Part shown: piece by piece, positions 5,901-52,686 of the stretch | How positions within the stretch are numbered: the stretch's first letter is position 1 | How the letters are laid out: every line of letters begins with the position of its first letter | Source: Rhabdaerophilum sp. SD176 | GTDB taxonomy: Bacteria; Pseudomonadota; Alphaproteobacteria; Rhizobiales; Beijerinckiaceae | Assembly: GCF_030143245.1 (NCBI RefSeq) | Contig: NZ_JARJNS010000002.1 | Location: forward strand, 558,001 to 622,000 | Length of the DNA: 64,000 nucleotides | Direction of reading: 5' to 3' | Translations under genes and position numbers: made by a program | The notes under the pieces: generated by a model | What the model was told of the DNA's origin: nothing | The model's input: only the letters and a program-made list of their open reading frames with translations | Databases searched by the model: none

Positions 5901-6721
5901 CGATTCTCGAGGATGCCGAGCAGGGCGAGGCTGCCCGCGCCCTCTGGGAGGATGCCCAGGCCATGTTGAAGCGCATCATCGACGAGCGCTGGTTCCAGGC
6001 CAAGGCGGTGATCGGCTTCTGGCCGGCCAATGCCGTGGGCGATGATATCCGCCTCTATACCGGCGAGAGCCGCACGGAGGCGCTGGCCACCTTCCATGGG
6101 CTCCGGCAGCAGCTTTCCAAGCGTGACGGGCGGCCGAATCTCTGCCTGTCGGATTTTGTGGCGCCGGAAGGCACCAAGCCGGACTGGCTCGGCGCCTTCG
6201 TCGTGACTGCCGGGATCGGCGAGGACCGGATCGCCGACAAACTCAAGGGCAAGAACGACGATTATTCCTCGATCATGGCCAAGGCTTTGGCCGACCGGCT
6301 GGCTGAAGCCTTTGCGGAGCGGATGCATGAGCGGGTGCGCAAGGAGTTCTGGGCTTATGCCCCGGACGAGGCCTATGCGCCCGACGACTTGCATGGCGAG
6401 CCCTATGATGGCATCCGCCCGGCGCCCGGCTATCCGGCCCAGCCCGACCATACCGAGAAAGCGACCCTGTTCAGCCTGACCGAGGCGACACGGCGCATCG
6501 GCGTACAACTGACCGAGAGCTATGCGATGTGGCCGGGCGCCAGCGTGTCCGGCCTCTATCTCAGCCACCCGGACAGCCATTATTTCGGCGTTGCCAAGGT
6601 GGAACGAGATCAGGTCGAGGATTATGCCCGCCGCAAGGGCATGGATATCCGTGAGGTCGAGCGCTGGCTGGCGCCGATCCTCAATTATGATCCGGCGGGG
6701 TATGTGGTCGCGGCGGAGTGA
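2984..6721 (+). CDS. metH: Cobalamin-dependent methionine synthase
   Basis: This 1245-residue enzyme methylates homocysteine using methyl-THF and cobalamin. All four modules are present: a homocysteine/zinc barrel at about 15-330 with GLNCALG and the paired Cys of [10 protein letters not shown]; a pterin-binding barrel at about 350-620 ([16 protein letters not shown]); a B12 module at about 650-890 with the cobalt-ligating His in DVHDIGKN near 767; and the SAM-dependent reactivation domain to the end ([14 protein letters not shown]). It lies 50 bases after metF with AAGGA before the ATG. Full length, no frameshift. It closes the methionine-cycle operon. Confidence 0.97.
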
Positions 6722-6930
6722 GGGATGGCCCGAATGCGGGCCGCTCCCCGCCCGACCGGGCCACGCGCCCTCCTCTCCGTCACGCGCTGCGTGGTGATCC
6801 ACCGCGCCGCCTGCTGGAAAAAGGCGAGGCGCGCCTCCTGCCGGAGGGAAGCGGCTTCGCGGCGATAGGTGTCGAAATCGATCGGGAATCGGGGGCACAT
6901 GGGCATCTCCATGGGTGCTGTCTCATTCAT
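6685..6930 (-). CDS. Small conserved-type protein, 81 aa, unknown function
   Basis: A minus-strand frame starting with ATG at 6930 is preceded by AGGAGG, though only 2 bases from the start. The N-terminal part ([22 protein letters not shown]) resembles short alphaproteobacterial proteins with an 'FD.D.Y...A..LR.EA....F' pattern; the C-terminal half is Arg/Ala-rich and overlaps the end of metH by 37 bases. It lies between metH and the lysR gene, which faces the other way, as expected for a gene divergent from a LysR regulator. No function is assigned. It could be spurious; the strong ribosome-binding sequence and the N-terminal pattern are the main support. Confidence 0.5.
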
Positions 6931-6999
6931 GCCTCCTTGTAATCCGGTCTCATTTTGCGATAATCAGCGAAATCAGACTGTATTTCCGGAATTCAATTC

Positions 7000-7887
7000 A
7001 TGAATGACATGGCCGCCTTTGTGCGGATCGTCGAAGAAGGGAGCTTCGCTGCGGCCGCGCCCGGCCTCGGCCTGACACCGTCTGCACTTTCAAAACTGGT
7101 CAGCCGCCTCGAGGACCGGCTCCGCGTCCGCCTGCTGACGCGCACCACGCGCCGGCTTGCCCTGACTGCCGAGGGGCAGACCTATCTCGAGCGGGCACGC
7201 GAGATCCTCGCAGCGATCGAGGCGGTCGAATCAGATCTCTCGCAGGCGGGCCGGCGCCCCGGCGGACGCGTGCGGGTCGATGCCGGCACGGCCATCGCCA
7301 AGCATCAGCTGGCGCCGCTCCTGCCGGTGTTCCACGCGCGTTATCCCGAAATCAGCGTCGATCTGTCGGTGACGGATCGCCAGATCGATCCAGTCGCCGA
7401 GCATGTCGACCTTGTGCTGCGGACCGGCGCCATGGGCGATTCCAGCCTCCAGGCGGTCCGGCTCTATGACGGCCATCGCCGCATCTGCGCCAGCCCGGAT
7501 TATCTGGCCCGAAACGGGGTTCCGCGCACACCTGCCGATCTCGCCAGCCATCAATGCCTGCTGCTTTCGCACCAGCCACATCTGGCACGCTGGCCCTTTC
7601 ACACGCCGGAGGGGGTGAATGCGATGACGATCCGGGCGGCGATCACGGTCGACAGCGCCGATATCCTGCTCGATCTCGCCATTGGCGGGGCGGGAATTGT
7701 CCGGCTTGGCAATATCCTTGTCGACCGGGCGCTGGCCGACGGGCGGCTTGTTTCCCTGCTCGAAGATGTCCACGCGGTCGAGCCATTCCCGGTCTGGGCG
7801 GTCATGCCGCCCGGGCGGTTCCGGGTCCACCGCGTGCGGGTGCTGCTTGATTTCCTGAAGGAGCGCCTCGGGGCGGCGCCGTCATGA
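7000..7887 (+). CDS. LysR-family transcriptional regulator
   Basis: The 295-residue protein begins with a LysR winged helix-turn-helix (MNDMAAFVRIVEEGSFAAAA, then LTPSALSKLVSRLEDRL and LLTRTTRRLALTAEG) followed by a periplasmic-binding-protein-like effector domain from about residue 90. The pattern RICASPDYLARNG is typical of the large CrgA-like branch. It is divergent from the small minus-strand gene ending at 6685, separated by about 70 bases, and may regulate it. Its stop overlaps the stop of the convergent amidase gene. Effector and targets cannot be inferred. Confidence 0.92.
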   Translation: MNDMAAFVRIVEEGSFAAAAPGLGLTPSALSKLVSRLEDRLRVRLLTRTTRRLALTAEGQTYLERAREILAAIEAVESDLSQAGRRPGGRVRVDAGTAIAKHQLAPLLPVFHARYPEISVDLSVTDRQIDPVAEHVDLVLRTGAMGDSSLQAVRLYDGHRRICASPDYLARNGVPRTPADLASHQCLLLSHQPHLARWPFHTPEGVNAMTIRAAITVDSADILLDLAIGGAGIVRLGNILVDRALADGRLVSLLEDVHAVEPFPVWAVMPPGRFRVHRVRVLLDFLKERLGAAPS

Positions 7888-8682
7888 GAGCGCGGCGAGC
7901 GCGCGCAAGCTGGCCAGTGTCTCGCCATCGGCCACCCCGTCCACCTTCCCCTGCCGCCAATGGCGCTGGAAGGCGGTGACGACATCCACCGTATAGGGGT
8001 CGAACACGCCTGTGATTTCAAGATTGTAGCCGAAACGCGCGAGCATGGCCTGCAAAGCCGCCACGGGCATGCCCTCGTCTCCGGCCCGGTAGGTGGGGGC
8101 ACCTTCGGGAACCTCCTGTTTCTCCACCCAGAGGCCGAGCCCGGCGGCGGCCAGCCGCGCCCAGGGGAAGCGCTCGCCGGGATCGACCTTGCGGCCGGGG
8201 GCAATGTCGGAATGGGCGAGGATGCGGCTGTCCGGGATGCCCCAGCGCGCCTTGATATCCGCCACAAGACGGATCACCGCCTCGATCTGGACAGAAGGGA
8301 AATCCGGATATGTGCCGGGTTCGGGCGGCATTCGGGTGAGGTCATGGCCGGGATTGGCGATCTCGATGCCGATCGAGCGGGAATTCATGTCATTCTCGCG
8401 CTGCCAGCTCGAGCGGCCCGCATGCCAGGCGCGGCGGCTTTCCGGCACCATCTGCCAGATCCGGCCATCCTCGAAGATGAAATAATGGCAGGAGACTTGT
8501 GAAAGCGGGTTCGCCAGCCAGAGCAGGGCCGAGGCCGTGTCGGCCATGCCGGTATAATGCAGGATGATGCTGTCCGGGCGATCCGTCCCCCTGCGCTCGC
8601 CATGGTTCGGCGAGGGATGGAGCCGATCCGCATGAAGCGAATCCGGGCGGGGTTCGGCGGTGGGCAAAGACGAATCAACCAT
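7882..8682 (-). CDS. N-acetylmuramoyl-L-alanine amidase, AmpD/AmiD type with peptidoglycan-binding domain
   Basis: This 266-residue protein carries an Amidase_2 domain (about 25-180) with the zinc ligands His42 (IILHYTG), His157 and Asp167 (LAHSDIAPGRKVDPG) and the catalytic Glu of SIGIEIANPGHD. A peptidoglycan-binding repeat follows at about 195-262 (MPVAALQAMLARFGYNLEITG, ending in TAFQRHWRQ). It should cut the amide bond between N-acetylmuramic acid and the stem peptide, in wall turnover or muropeptide recycling. No convincing signal peptide or lipobox is seen, which favours a cytoplasmic AmpD-like role; the extra binding domain is more typical of AmiD-like enzymes. Confidence 0.9.
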   Translation of the reverse strand: MVDSSLPTAEPRPDSLHADRLHPSPNHGERRGTDRPDSIILHYTGMADTASALLWLANPLSQVSCHYFIFEDGRIWQMVPESRRAWHAGRSSWQRENDMNSRSIGIEIANPGHDLTRMPPEPGTYPDFPSVQIEAVIRLVADIKARWGIPDSRILAHSDIAPGRKVDPGERFPWARLAAAGLGLWVEKQEVPEGAPTYRAGDEGMPVAALQAMLARFGYNLEITGVFDPYTVDVVTAFQRHWRQGKVDGVADGETLASLRALAALS

Positions 8683-40441: not shown

Positions 40442-41452
40442 TCAGGCGCGGCGCGGCTTGCCGCCACCCCGGCGCAGCAGGAGGCTGGCCCAGCCTTCGA
40501 GATGGCGCTTCGCCACGAGATGGAAGCCGAAAGCGCGGTATTTCGCGAGAATGGACGGCACATCCGGCAGCAGCAGGCCGGAGAGGATCAGTTCTGCCCC
40601 CGGCGTGGTGGCGGCAGCGATTTCCGGTGCGAGGCCCCGCAGCGGGCGCGCGAGGATATTGGCGAAGACGAGCGTGTAGGCGCCGCGCGCCCGGAGATCC
40701 GGATGCTGCAGGCCGCGTGCGACAACTGGCCTCACATGCGGCCCCACGCCGTTGAGGCGGGCATTGGCCCGGGCGATGCGCACCGAATCCGGATCCATCT
40801 CGCCCGCCCAGACGAAATCGTGGGTGATGCGCGCCGCCGCAAAGGCGAGCACGCCGGTGCCGGTGCCGATATCGACAATGGCCTCGCGCGGGGCGAGGCC
40901 GGCGCGCCGCGGCTTGCGGCGCTTTACCCAGTCCTCGAAATGCAGCAGGCAACCGCGCGTGGTGCCGTGATGGCCGGTGCCGAAGGCGAGGGCGGCCTCG
41001 ATCTCGATATTGATGCGGTTCGGGGCGAGGTGTCCGCGATCATGTGCGCCATGCACAGTGAAGCGTCCGGCATCGACCGGCTTCAGCCCTTCAAGCGCGG
41101 TGGCGATCCAGTCCTGCGCGGCGATGCTCTCGAAGACGAGGGCAGCGCCCGCTTCCGGGCCGGCAATCCCGGCCACGAGCGCGCGGATCTCGGCCTCGTC
41201 CGGCGCTTCGCCGAAATGCAGTTCCACCAACCAGGGCAGGGCCTGATCCGGCAGGAGCGTGCCCATCGCGCCCTCGCGGAACGCCTCCTGCCGCTTCGGG
41301 CGCGGCACGGCGGCGGGCAGGGCATCGGCTTCCGGCATCTCGAAGGCGGAGGCGGCGAGTTCCTCCGGCTCGAAGAGTTCAGACAAAGCATCGGCAATCC
41401 GCGTGGCGCGGGCTTCGTCGGTGATCAGGCGGGCGAGGATGGTTGCGGTCAT
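40442..41452 (-). CDS. prmA: Ribosomal protein L11 methyltransferase-like
   Basis: PrmA trimethylates ribosomal protein L11. The 336-residue protein has an N-terminal L11-binding-like domain and a SAM-binding domain with GTGHHGTTRGCLLHFEDW, VDIGTGTGVLAFAAAR and VFANILARPLRGLAPEI, which is the PrmA form of the N[IL]LA catalytic motif. It starts 6 bases after the stop of the AT-rich Mrr gene, so it is now presumably transcribed through that gene from pcrA. Confidence 0.93.
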   Translation of the reverse strand: MTATILARLITDEARATRIADALSELFEPEELAASAFEMPEADALPAAVPRPKRQEAFREGAMGTLLPDQALPWLVELHFGEAPDEAEIRALVAGIAGPEAGAALVFESIAAQDWIATALEGLKPVDAGRFTVHGAHDRGHLAPNRINIEIEAALAFGTGHHGTTRGCLLHFEDWVKRRKPRRAGLAPREAIVDIGTGTGVLAFAAARITHDFVWAGEMDPDSVRIARANARLNGVGPHVRPVVARGLQHPDLRARGAYTLVFANILARPLRGLAPEIAAATTPGAELILSGLLLPDVPSILAKYRAFGFHLVAKRHLEGWASLLLRRGGGKPRRA

Positions 41453-41458
41453 TGAAAA

Positions 41459-42301
41459 TCAGATGCTGCTCAAAAGAGCTTTGTCCACCGACACTTCTTC
41501 AACCATGCGAATGGTTACTCCTAAACGAAGTGATTTAAGAAGCTCGCAAAGGGAATCCCCGTCCACCAAATCAATTGTTGGTGCGCCATCTCGTATTGCT
41601 TCTCTTTGCGCGTCGGCAGTAAATCTGCCGGTTGTGATAACCAGACCTTTGTCCGCCCTCCCAATCATGGCGCCCCGAAAATCACGAATTGTCGATGACG
41701 AGACAGCATCTTTCCAACGCTTGCACTGGAATGAGACTTGAAAGGAAACCAAATTAATACGTAGGACACCAGAGCCATCAATTCCACCATCGCCACTTCG
41801 GCCAGATACAATAACTTTCGAAAATCCACTTTCTCGTAAGAGTCTTTGGCATAGGCGTTCGAAAGCATCAGGCGCCATAATCTTTAGCTCAGCTAAAAGA
41901 TTTTCTTTCCAGCTTAATTCCTCTATTTCTTGGTCACTTTCAAACGATTCCAGTTTTTCTGGAGCCTTTTTTTGCAGGCTTCTTACGATTCTAGGAACGT
42001 GTGTAATTTCTGATTCGGTAATTATTCGTCCTTTGGGAGTAAGAGACCACACCCCCCGAGAGCTGTTTTCAAGTGCATCAAACTGTTTTAAATAAGTTCT
42101 TGCCCAAGCAAGCCTATATCCAACTTGAGTTCTGCCTGTATCTCCGTGCGGTATGCTAAGAATGTCTTCAGATATATTTAGTTTTTCGCCAACTTTTTCT
42201 TCAAGCTCCTCAATGGTTGCTGAGCCACCCATTTCCCGCAGGACAACAATCATTGGCCACATTAGGTCATTGAACTTAGGAACCCGTTTATCCATTTTCA
42301 T
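41459..42301 (-). CDS. Mrr-family restriction endonuclease (foreign, AT-rich)
   Basis: The 280-residue protein has a winged-helix Mrr_N-like region (VGYRLAWARTYLKQFDALE, then GVWSLTPKGR) at about 60-100 and a PD-(D/E)xK nuclease domain at about 135-260 with AFERLCQRLLRESGFSKVIV, GDGGIDGSG and the QxK of FQCKRWK. Mrr enzymes cut methylated or otherwise modified DNA and usually stand alone. Base composition is clearly AT-rich with Lys/Ile/Ser-rich codon use (AAA, TTT, AGA), unlike every neighbour, which points to horizontal transfer. It sits between pcrA (3-base gap) and prmA (6-base gap) with no transposase or flanking repeat. Catalytic residues appear intact. Confidence 0.9.
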   Translation of the reverse strand: MKMDKRVPKFNDLMWPMIVVLREMGGSATIEELEEKVGEKLNISEDILSIPHGDTGRTQVGYRLAWARTYLKQFDALENSSRGVWSLTPKGRIITESEITHVPRIVRSLQKKAPEKLESFESDQEIEELSWKENLLAELKIMAPDAFERLCQRLLRESGFSKVIVSGRSGDGGIDGSGVLRINLVSFQVSFQCKRWKDAVSSSTIRDFRGAMIGRADKGLVITTGRFTADAQREAIRDGAPTIDLVDGDSLCELLKSLRLGVTIRMVEEVSVDKALLSSI

Positions 42302-42304
42302 AGG

Positions 42305-44710
42305 TCACCCCGCCTGGACGAAGCTGTCGATCACCATCTTGCGGCCGGCCTTGTCGAAATCGACGGTCAGCTTGTTGCCATCGACCTCGGCCACGGTGCC
42401 GGGACCGAATTTGAGATGGAAGACGCGGGCGCCGGATTCGAATTTCGACGGGCTGCCGGTGGAGGAGGCAAGGACGCGTCCCTCGATCAGGGCCGGGCCA
42501 CCGCGCCGGCCGGGATCCTGCGGGGCGGCGGAAGGGCGGAAGCCGGCCTGGCTCGCTGCCTGGGCCCGCTGCCAGCCGGGGGTGGAATAGCTCGAACCCT
42601 GGAAGGGCTGCACCTTGTCGAAGCGGCTGCCCCCGCCGCCACCATAGCCGCCGCCATAGATCTGGCGCTGCTGGCTGCCATAGGTGCCCTGGCCCTCCAT
42701 CACCTCGACATGCTCGGCGGGCAATTCATCGATGAAGCGCGAAGGAATGGCTGCCTGCCAGAGGCCGTGGATGCGGCGGTTGGTGGCGAAGAACAGCCGG
42801 GCGCGCCGCTTGGCGCGGGTCAGGCCGACATAGGCGAGGCGGCGTTCCTCCTCGAGCCCGGCCTTGCCCTGGTCATCCAGCGCACGTTGATGCGGGAAGA
42901 CGCCCTCTTCCCAGCCGGGCAGGAACACGGTTTCGAATTCGAGGCCCTTGGCGGCATGGAGCGTCATGATCGAGACGCGGTCGCTGCTGTCGGATGAGGC
43001 CGCATCCATCACCAGCCCGACATGTTCGAGGAAGCCGGCGAGATTCTCGAATTCCTCCATCGACCGGACGAGTTCCTTGAGGTTCTCGAGCCGGCCGGCA
43101 GCATCGGCCGAGCGGTCCTTCTTCCACATGTCAGTGTAGCCGGATTCCTCCAGCACGAGTTCGGCCAGTTCGTGATGCGGCAGGCTCTCGATCTGGCCGG
43201 ACCAGCGCGAGAAGCTGTCCATCAGCTCGCGCAGGGTCTGGCGCTGCTTGGGCTTCAGCTCCTCGGTTTCCACGAGAACGCGTGCGGCCTGCATCAGCGG
43301 CACGCGTTCGGCGCGGGCATAGCCATGCAGGACCGTGAGCACGGCATCGCCGATGCCGCGCTTCGGCGTGTTGATGATCCGCTCGAAGGCGAGGTCATTC
43401 GAGGAGGAGGCGACGCATTTGAGATAGGCGAGGGCATCGCGGATCTCGGCACGCTCGTAAAAGCGCGGGCCACCGATGACGCGATAGGGAATTGCGTTGG
43501 TGATGAAGCGTTCCTCGAATTCGCGCATCTGGAACGAGGCGCGGACAAGGATCGCCATCTGGTCGAGCACATGGCCCTTGTGCTGGAGAGACTCGATCTC
43601 GTCGGCAATCTGCCGGGCCTCCTCCTCGGAATCCCAGGCGCAGGCAACGGTGACCTTGTCGCCCAGCTCGCCTTCCGTGAAGAGGGTCTTGCCGAGCCGG
43701 CCCTCGTTCTTCTCGATCAGCCGCGCTGCCGCGCCGAGAATATGCCCGGTCGAGCGGTAGTTGCGCTCCAGCCGGACAACGGTGGCGCCGGGGAAATCCT
43801 TCTCGAAGCGGAGGATGTTGTCGACCTCGGCGCCGCGCCAGCCATAGATCGACTGGTCATCATCGCCGACGCAGCAGATGTTGCGCCTTCCCTGCGCGAC
43901 GAGGCGAAGCCAGAGATACTGGGCGACGTTGGTATCCTGATATTCGTCGACGAGGATATAGCGGAAGCGTTCCTGATATTGCGCGAGGATTTCCGGATTG
44001 TCGCGGAAGAGGCGGATCGTCTCGAGCAGGAGATCGCCGAAATCGACGGCATTGAGCGTCTTCAGCCGGTCCTGGTAGAGGCCGTAAAGCTCGGCGCCAC
44101 GCCCGGCAAAGCCGATGGATTCCCCGGCCGAGACCTTGTTCGGCGGCAATGCCCGGTTCTTCCAGCTGTCGATCTGGTTGGCCAGAACACGCGCCGGCCA
44201 GCGCTTGTCGTCGATATCCTCGGCCTGCAGGATCTGCTTGATCAGGCGGATCTGGTCATCGGTGTCGAGGATGGTGAAATCCGGCTTGAGATCGACGACC
44301 TCGGCATGGCGGCGGAGCAGCTTCGTGCCGATGGCATGGAAGGTTCCGAGCCAGGGCATGCCCTCGGCCACCGCGCCAACGAGATGGGCGATGCGCTCCT
44401 TCATCTCGCGCGCGGCCTTGTTGGTGAAGGTCATCGCGAGAATCTCGTTCGGGCGTGCCCGGCCGGTGGCGATGATATGCGCGATGCGGCTGGTCAGCAC
44501 CTTGGTCTTGCCGGTGCCGGCACCCGCGAGCACGAGAACGGGGCCGTCCATCGCCTCGACGGCGCGGAGCTGCTCCGGGTTCAGGCCGCCGAGATAGGCG
44601 GCCGGGGCAGCCGCGGCTCGCGCACGCGCGGCCAGCCCACCGGGCTGCGGCTGAACTTTCGGGGCCGGCTCGGCGGAGGACCAGCTATCGAGCGAGAACG
44701 GATCGGACAA
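42305..44710 (-). CDS. pcrA: UvrD/PcrA-type DNA helicase
   Basis: This superfamily 1 3'-5' helicase acts in nucleotide excision repair and in clearing recombination intermediates and stalled polymerases. The 801-residue protein shows Q-motif LNPEQLRAVEA, Walker A GAGTGKTKVLT at about 63-73, VDEYQDTN, GDDDQSIYGWRGAE, MTLHAAKGLEFETVF and VGLTRAKRRARLFF. The C-terminal Tudor-like RNA polymerase-binding module is present (VFHLKFGPGTVAEVDG). Either uvrD or pcrA is acceptable as a name. Confidence 0.94.
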   Translation of the reverse strand: MSDPFSLDSWSSAEPAPKVQPQPGGLAARARAAAAPAAYLGGLNPEQLRAVEAMDGPVLVLAGAGTGKTKVLTSRIAHIIATGRARPNEILAMTFTNKAAREMKERIAHLVGAVAEGMPWLGTFHAIGTKLLRRHAEVVDLKPDFTILDTDDQIRLIKQILQAEDIDDKRWPARVLANQIDSWKNRALPPNKVSAGESIGFAGRGAELYGLYQDRLKTLNAVDFGDLLLETIRLFRDNPEILAQYQERFRYILVDEYQDTNVAQYLWLRLVAQGRRNICCVGDDDQSIYGWRGAEVDNILRFEKDFPGATVVRLERNYRSTGHILGAAARLIEKNEGRLGKTLFTEGELGDKVTVACAWDSEEEARQIADEIESLQHKGHVLDQMAILVRASFQMREFEERFITNAIPYRVIGGPRFYERAEIRDALAYLKCVASSSNDLAFERIINTPKRGIGDAVLTVLHGYARAERVPLMQAARVLVETEELKPKQRQTLRELMDSFSRWSGQIESLPHHELAELVLEESGYTDMWKKDRSADAAGRLENLKELVRSMEEFENLAGFLEHVGLVMDAASSDSSDRVSIMTLHAAKGLEFETVFLPGWEEGVFPHQRALDDQGKAGLEEERRLAYVGLTRAKRRARLFFATNRRIHGLWQAAIPSRFIDELPAEHVEVMEGQGTYGSQQRQIYGGGYGGGGGSRFDKVQPFQGSSYSTPGWQRAQAASQAGFRPSAAPQDPGRRGGPALIEGRVLASSTGSPSKFESGARVFHLKFGPGTVAEVDGNKLTVDFDKAGRKMVIDSFVQAG

Positions 44711-51813: not shown

Positions 51814-51871
51814 CGTGGTGCTGCTGGCCCTGACCCGCCCGGAATGCCGGTTCCGGCGAAGGATGCCCGCA

Positions 51872-52564
51872 TCAGTCGCGGATGGCAATGAAGCTCTTGG
51901 TCAGGCCGAAGAAGCGTTCCTTGATCATGCGGGCCGGTTCGGGGAACAGGGCCCGGAACCGCACGGCATCGACCATGATCGCATCCTCGCAGAAGCGCAT
52001 CGCATCATCGAGGGTCGCGGCCTTCGGAAACGCGCCGAGAGCCATGTGGCGCGTCCACCAGATGCGCATCGGCATCGGCAGCCAATGGAAGAACGGAGCG
52101 CGGAAATGCGGCTCGATCGGGAAGCCGAACGCGGGCGTCTGCACATAATAGCACGGGGCGAGGCGTTGGACCTCCGCCGCCATGGCGCGCATGGCTGCCC
52201 AACGGCCAACATGCTCGATGACTGAATTGGAATGGACGATATCGAAGCTGTTATCCGCGAATTCCGGCATTGCGCAGGCATTGCCAGCCAGCGAGGTGAA
52301 GCGCGGATCGCTCACGCGCTCGGCCTGAAGGTTGACGAGCGTGAAATGCACGTCATGCCGTTTCCAGAGCGGTTCGACCGCCAGCCAGTATTCGGCGGTG
52401 CCGCCGACATCGAGAATGCGGGCGGAGCCTTTCTCCGCCACCACCTTGTCGATCAGCGCCGTGATATAGGCAAAGCGTTTCAGGCGGAACGAACTCAGCG
52501 GCGAGGCCTCGCCCTGGATGGAAATCTTGTTCGCGGTCTGGATCGTTCCGGATGCTGATGCCAT
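51872..52564 (-). CDS. Class I SAM-dependent methyltransferase
   Basis: The 230-residue protein has a Methyltransf_11-like fold: motif I RILDVGGTAEYW at about 48-59, NLQAERVSD, GNACAMPEFADNSFDIVHSNSVIEHVG. The tail mentions a long Phe/Trp/Met-rich segment (FFHWLPMPMRIWWTRHMALG), which may lie on the membrane. The substrate is unknown; lipid or sugar methylation is possible. It is placed between fumC and DUF4169, a pair often adjacent in related genomes. Confidence 0.85.
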   Translation of the reverse strand: MASASGTIQTANKISIQGEASPLSSFRLKRFAYITALIDKVVAEKGSARILDVGGTAEYWLAVEPLWKRHDVHFTLVNLQAERVSDPRFTSLAGNACAMPEFADNSFDIVHSNSVIEHVGRWAAMRAMAAEVQRLAPCYYVQTPAFGFPIEPHFRAPFFHWLPMPMRIWWTRHMALGAFPKAATLDDAMRFCEDAIMVDAVRFRALFPEPARMIKERFFGLTKSFIAIRD

Positions 52565-52686
52565 GCCTTAGCCCTTCCTGTTCTGCCGAAAGGGCTTAGG
52601 CCGGGCATGTTTGACAACCCCTAAACGCCGGTAAAAAGCCGGGTTTTGTGATGAATCCCGGTTTAAGGCGATTGTCGGAATGCCGC

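Follow-up and report, generated by a model that had tools for sequence, protein, structure and literature searches.

Mrr of E. coli is described as a type IV restriction enzyme with ill-defined targets (PMC3874153, PMC12707154). It is reported to be induced by M.HhaII, the maker of G6mANTC (PMC12707154), and a review warns that the preference for modified DNA is not dictated by the Mrr nuclease domain itself (PMC3874153). In alphaproteobacteria, GANTC is methylated by CcrM, and Zymomonas is described as having an Mrr alongside 98-99% GANTC methylation; in that work, conjugation of the tested plasmids was no higher after the Zymomonas mrr had been deleted, and the authors mention that a gain had been reported before for a different plasmid (PMC8432527). 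As to the way gene content is exchanged, Oliveira et al. 2017 described hotspots that lack mobile elements and undergo recombination at the flanking core genes (PMC5635113). Insertion of restriction genes with long target duplications has been described as well (PMC3031569, PMC3874152, with Nobusato et al. 2000 cited there).

The locus considered here lies in a 64,000-nt stretch of DNA from Rhabdaerophilum sp. SD176, called the window throughout. All the space from the pcrA stop codon to the prmA start codon is taken up there by mrr, in our judgement likely a recently acquired restriction endonuclease of the Mrr type, probably of type IV, and one allele of an exchange pocket between pcrA and prmA. 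The features are:

41459..42301, minus strand: mrr, Mrr-type restriction endonuclease; intact 280-aa open reading frame, matched by Pfam Mrr_N and Mrr_cat and by PADLOC
42020..42274, minus strand: Mrr_N domain (winged-helix type), residues 10-94; PF14338, 64.6 bits
41537..41878, minus strand: Mrr_cat nuclease domain, residues 142-255; PF04471, 100 bits
41777..41779, minus strand: D175 codon, predicted catalytic Asp, kept in 27/27 homologues
41720..41728, minus strand: Q192-C193-K194 codons, QxK motif, with Q and K kept in 27/27 homologues
42305..44710, minus strand: pcrA, UvrD/PcrA-family helicase, core neighbour upstream; its stop codon is one edge of the exchanged block
40442..41452, minus strand: prmA, ribosomal protein L11 methyltransferase family, core neighbour downstream; the block has its other edge at the prmA start codon

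The pcrA stop codon (42305-42307) and the prmA ATG (41450-41452) lie 3 and 6 nt from mrr, respectively, in agreement with the spacings given in a preliminary description of this DNA. The sharply deviating base composition noted there was also borne out. The GC content of mrr is 0.442 in DNA of 66% GC, its GC3 is 0.37 compared to 0.82-0.86 in six neighbouring genes, and its codon adaptation to these six is 0.20, compared to 0.64-0.76 for the neighbours among themselves. Scans of GC and codon usage made mrr the outlier of the window: over 843-nt stretches the mean GC was 0.660 (sd 0.027), and every stretch other than mrr reached at least 0.578. pcrA and prmA were named after their best matches, with NCBIfam scores below the curated cut-offs (779 vs 911 and 210 vs 244) and Pfam scores, for UvrD-helicase and PrmA, well over theirs.

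With an N-terminal Mrr_N domain (cut-off 29.5 bits) and a C-terminal Mrr_cat domain (cut-off 21 bits) that holds a D..(D/E/Q)xK site, the product has both domains of an Mrr-type restriction endonuclease. Pfam NA-iREase1 matched too (32.4 bits, cut-off 27), and PADLOC gave PDC-S02 (91.6 bits) and mREase_IV (77.8 bits). D175, Q192 and K194 were invariant across all of the 27 aligned homologues, and the nuclease motif set is indeed intact, as the preliminary description had stated. NCBIfam offered no model for the product. A PDB sequence search returned a restriction enzyme, 4f0p, weakly (E 0.006) and two other entries at chance level, and structure prediction of the Mrr protein alone was poor (mean pLDDT 42). 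No methyltransferase gene adjoins mrr, its neighbours being pcrA and prmA. Judged by its sequence, the product is probably a restriction nuclease of type IV, and its family suggests an action on modified DNA. A second Mrr_cat domain occurs in the same genome, in a 550-aa frame (L001, G000:C24:73813-74148).

The genus set comprised 17 genomes, the window's own included, with pcrA in 17/17 and prmA in 16/17. Both genes were on one contig in 16 of the 17, that is, in the window and 15 relatives; G204 was kept (prmA cut by the contig end, its start present) and G203 left out (contig ending 143 nt past pcrA). The comparison with relatives came out in favor of acquisition, which the preliminary description had assumed: mrr was found in the pcrA-prmA gap of 0/15 assessable congeners. 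Because of this absence, a foreign, horizontally acquired origin of mrr is strongly supported. The only matches anywhere in those 15 genomes (E up to 0.001) were in G153 (37% identity) and G166 (28%), in the nuclease domain. The alignments of three sister species spanned the entire window, and that of a fourth spanned 33910-64000. The matched parts showed 87-93% identity to these four closest species, save one 0.56-kb piece at 82% (G205). A block at about 41450-42304, ending at the pcrA stop codon and the first codons of prmA, was the only unmatched stretch of at least 120 nt common to all four, and none of the sisters' gap DNA is left in the window between the two genes. Collinearity with the sisters, mrr alone being unmatched in all four, is also the basis on which we agree that no mobile-element remnant is present. 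Two further stretches of the window were each unmatched in one sister, 6720-7889 by G166 and 51814-52685 by G205; they have normal GC, are matched in other sisters and represent ordinary gene presence/absence.

Across the 16 genus genomes, the gap between pcrA and prmA measured 55-2162 nt. Eight of the 16 gaps contained hicA-hicB toxin-antitoxin pairs, as read from translations (G166, G205, G202, G065, G094, G179, G117, G192); Pfam confirmed HicA_toxin or HicB_lk_antitox in the six genus proteins scanned, which fall into three types, and also in two HicB from other genera. Six gaps (G026, G201, G199, G153, G204, G117) held a small frame that looked membrane-spanning by eye and had no Pfam match. 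A LicD-like gene was present in the G153 gap, and the gaps of G137 and G200 had next to nothing inside. Among the five closest species, the window included, four different gap contents were found: G166 and G205 have a hicAB in common (87% over 603 nt), G179 has a different one, and the G137 gap of 161 nt has just 35 nt in common with that of G179. HicB of G166 and G179 showed 50% identity, PcrA and PrmA of the same two species being each 96-98% identical to those of the window. In the window's own genome HicA had no match, in a search that matched 7/14 control genomes. Gene content at this junction differs among close relatives, as in hotspots flanked by core genes. The pcrA-prmA gap is a small exchange pocket and mrr is one of its alleles. 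The preliminary description had overlooked that this site is a turnover pocket, often with hicAB. No paper on the pocket was found in the open-access literature, where hicAB together with pcrA matched one paper, in which PCRA means perchlorate reductase.

A leader of about 30 nt, with the core CGAATCAGGAGCGT, lies ahead of the first gene in 11/16 genus gaps, whether that gene is hicA or the small frame, which is unrelated to it (examples are the gaps of L160, L162, L164 and L166). When matched without gaps to a composed leader reference, nine of these 11 leaders scored above every one of 100 shuffles. The G204 leader did no better than tie with the shuffles, yet it contains the 14-mer core without a mismatch; the G094 leader was located by eye and is shifted by one base. 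The exact 14-mer occurred seven times in the 17 genomes, every time in a pcrA-prmA gap, and the reversed 14-mer occurred nowhere in them. All 11 leaders were predicted to form a hairpin in which some of the ribosome-binding site is base-paired, with modest energies (z 0.2 to -2.8, simple shuffles). Rfam at gathering score gave no match in four leader-bearing loci. This element looks like a resident leader beneath which cargo gets exchanged; in the window it is absent.

Outside the genus, we picked 40 genomes, for spread and long contigs, from 113 that had a prmA match and took the 5-6 kb upstream of prmA from each. pcrA lay upstream on the same strand in 15/40, and the gap of 8 of these 15 contained hicAB-like genes, four per strand, with HicB only in one of the eight (G116). 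hicAB was found near prmA in 0/25 of the remaining genomes in the fetched stretch, a loose control because these were viewed beside prmA rather than beside pcrA.

The search for donors proposed in the preliminary description yielded homologues, and neither a close match nor a donor with the order pcrA-mrr-prmA was among them. A family search (E up to 0.001) matched 57 of 199 genomes, the own one included, in many cases partially and weakly. At E up to 1e-60, the order search matched nine other genomes of 397 and the phylum search five other genomes of 398; the best identity among order and phylum matches was 59% and the distribution patchy. A search of genome_contigs gave one partial match (62% over 36 residues) and one of viral contigs none. 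Phages contributed three records at 25-35% identity. Plasmids contributed 37 records; the top five aligned along almost the full protein at 45-52%, and one record outside the listed best fell in the 60-80% band. A close donor was thus not supported by the genome, viral, phage, plasmid, order or phylum searches. We examined 23 homologue loci, nine from the family search and all fourteen others from the order and phylum searches. In six of them (L010, L013, L142, L144, L150, L154) the GC of the homologue was at least 0.08 under that of both flanks; in the rest it was not. Some of the homologues stand singly in apparent housekeeping operons: in L150 between ACP synthase III and acyltransferase genes, in L013 ahead of a phosphoglycerate dehydrogenase gene, with another neighbour that has no Pfam match, and in L012, judged by eye, likewise ahead of such a gene.

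How did mrr enter the pocket? Donor DNA with mrr and homology to pcrA and prmA would have come from an unsampled close relative, and the resident gap content would have been replaced via double homologous recombination. Of the route given in the preliminary description, horizontal acquisition is the part that stood firmly. Exchange at the flanking core genes is plausible because the block ends at the pcrA stop and the prmA start and no old gap DNA is left; it has no divergence rise at the junctions to show for it. Over the final 145 nt of pcrA the window diverges from the four sisters by 0.04-0.10, and over the initial 200 nt of prmA by 0.04-0.08; both lie within the range seen across the rest of the two genes. 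No donor tract is therefore visible at the mrr junctions in the comparison with the four sisters, one genome per species. A noisy patch upstream of pcrA had high divergence in every species pair. An invisible tract would fit a donor that itself belongs to the close group, or breaks located at the edges of the genes. The spacing of the genes further suggests that mrr may sit on the pcrA transcript; Mrr would be translated from a message that spans pcrA, mrr and prmA; deprived of the leader seen in sisters, prmA would now rely on read-through and perhaps on translational coupling. Promoter and terminator scans, of the sigma-70 type only, gave no more hits than in shuffles.

An illegitimate insertion of mrr that also removed the former gap content, brought about by end joining or by a small mobile element that escaped notice, is the first alternative to weigh, and we hold it to be unlikely. 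Flanks without an imported tract speak for it. So do the homologues, some of which stand singly between unrelated housekeeping genes and which, in the six loci named above, are much lower in GC than both flanks; such genes therefore reach many sites. The pocket itself offers an example: in G153, a LicD-like insert has the intact pcrA on one side and, on the other, 182 nt that repeat the pcrA end (97.8% identity), a copy that resembles the long target duplications described for restriction genes (PMC3031569, PMC3874152), and the G117 gap has a 33-nt remnant of the pcrA tail at 91%. The G153 insert shows one way of entry. None of the other 14 gaps, the window's included, has a duplicated pcrA tail, however, and the window junctions bear neither duplication nor terminal repeat. 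The direct repeats at the mrr borders, up to 25 nt at 72% with one exact 10-nt pair, are weak and at about chance level, in line with the earlier statement that no repeat is visible. A block that consists of mrr only, without convincing border repeats, is not an integrase- or transposase-borne element. Finally, no remainder of the sister gap DNA was left behind, and shared flanks simply explain repeated exchange of content at one junction, the reading that we prefer.

A question of its own is how an Mrr would get along with host methylation. The window genome has a CcrM-like methylase (best PDB match CcrMI, 6pbd, 515 bits; NCBIfam CcrM 593 bits, under the cut-off of 830; N6_N4_Mtase and RAMA domains), and this gene suggests that the genome is GANTC-methylated. 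As this is the mark that induces E. coli Mrr, the window's enzyme must either recognize a different target or be kept in check. By analogy, Zymomonas is a precedent for an Mrr living with GANTC methylation. In our proposal, the winged helix would recognize base modifications on DNA entering the cell, the PD-QxK domain would cut, and the enzyme would spare the host's own CcrM-type adenine methylation.

Rather than a self-standing type IV enzyme, the mrr product might be the nuclease component of a larger defence system that lost its partners on the way, and it would then be idle or have another role. Plasmid relatives are behind this thought, one from Mycolicibacterium that adjoins DNA methyltransferase and DEAD/DEAH helicase genes and one from pR997 that adjoins AAA-ATPase and mcrC genes. 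The Aminobacter plasmid copy, however, stands alone beside traA, the window copy is solitary as well, and Mrr_N domain and active-site residues are intact in it, so that we give this explanation little credit. Elsewhere in the own genome, an N6_N4_Mtase domain lies in a 998-aa frame (L156, G000:C2:41513-47080) and weak UvrD-like helicase matches lie in a 707-aa frame a few kb away; L156 is perhaps a defence locus.

A bolder idea, which we rate as very improbable, takes the pcrA 3' end for a standing landing site where single defence or addiction genes would be exchanged through insertions that duplicate the tail and need no integrase. The Mrr clade would then be a mobile gene, its nuclease promoting its own capture and its reading head telling GANTC methylation from foreign marks; this idea builds on the clade being single, often AT-rich and between unrelated housekeeping genes in distant bacteria. 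That mrr is an ancestral gene was rejected on account of its deviating composition and its absence from 15 congeners.

The locus shows, cleanly and on a very small scale, how defence and toxin-antitoxin genes replace each other at one core-gene junction in close species, a setting in which mechanism and selection can be traced without large islands. Target rules of Mrr are poorly defined so far. The contrast between E. coli Mrr, triggered by G6mANTC, and an Mrr in a CcrM-like host makes for a sharp test, and comparing the two could reveal how host and foreign methylation are told apart.

Among described systems, E. coli K-12 Mrr (EcoKMrr) resembles the window's protein, by its description in PMC12707154 and PMC3874153, in having an Mrr_N winged helix and an Mrr_cat domain with a D..QxK site. 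Whereas EcoKMrr is described as induced by M.HhaII G6mANTC methylation, the mrr of the window sits in a genome with a CcrM-like methylase. With the hotspots as described by Oliveira et al. 2017 (PMC5635113), the pocket shares the single core-gene junction, the high turnover and the lack of a visible element in the gap; it differs in being very small, with one or few genes, and in that raised flank recombination was not seen in the comparison with four sisters. The inserts with long target duplications described by the Kobayashi group (PMC3874152) find a counterpart in the G153 insert, which adjoins a duplicate of the pcrA tail, but this insert is a LicD-like gene instead of a restriction gene, and the mrr of the window comes without duplication. 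The E. coli immigration control region, yjiA-yjiN, is likewise described as having conserved boundary genes and exchanged restriction genes, mrr included, but it is a far larger defence island (PMC12707154), whereas here one gene or a hicAB pair is exchanged. All in all, the enzyme is ordinary, and the pcrA-prmA pocket is a further case of a kind already known.
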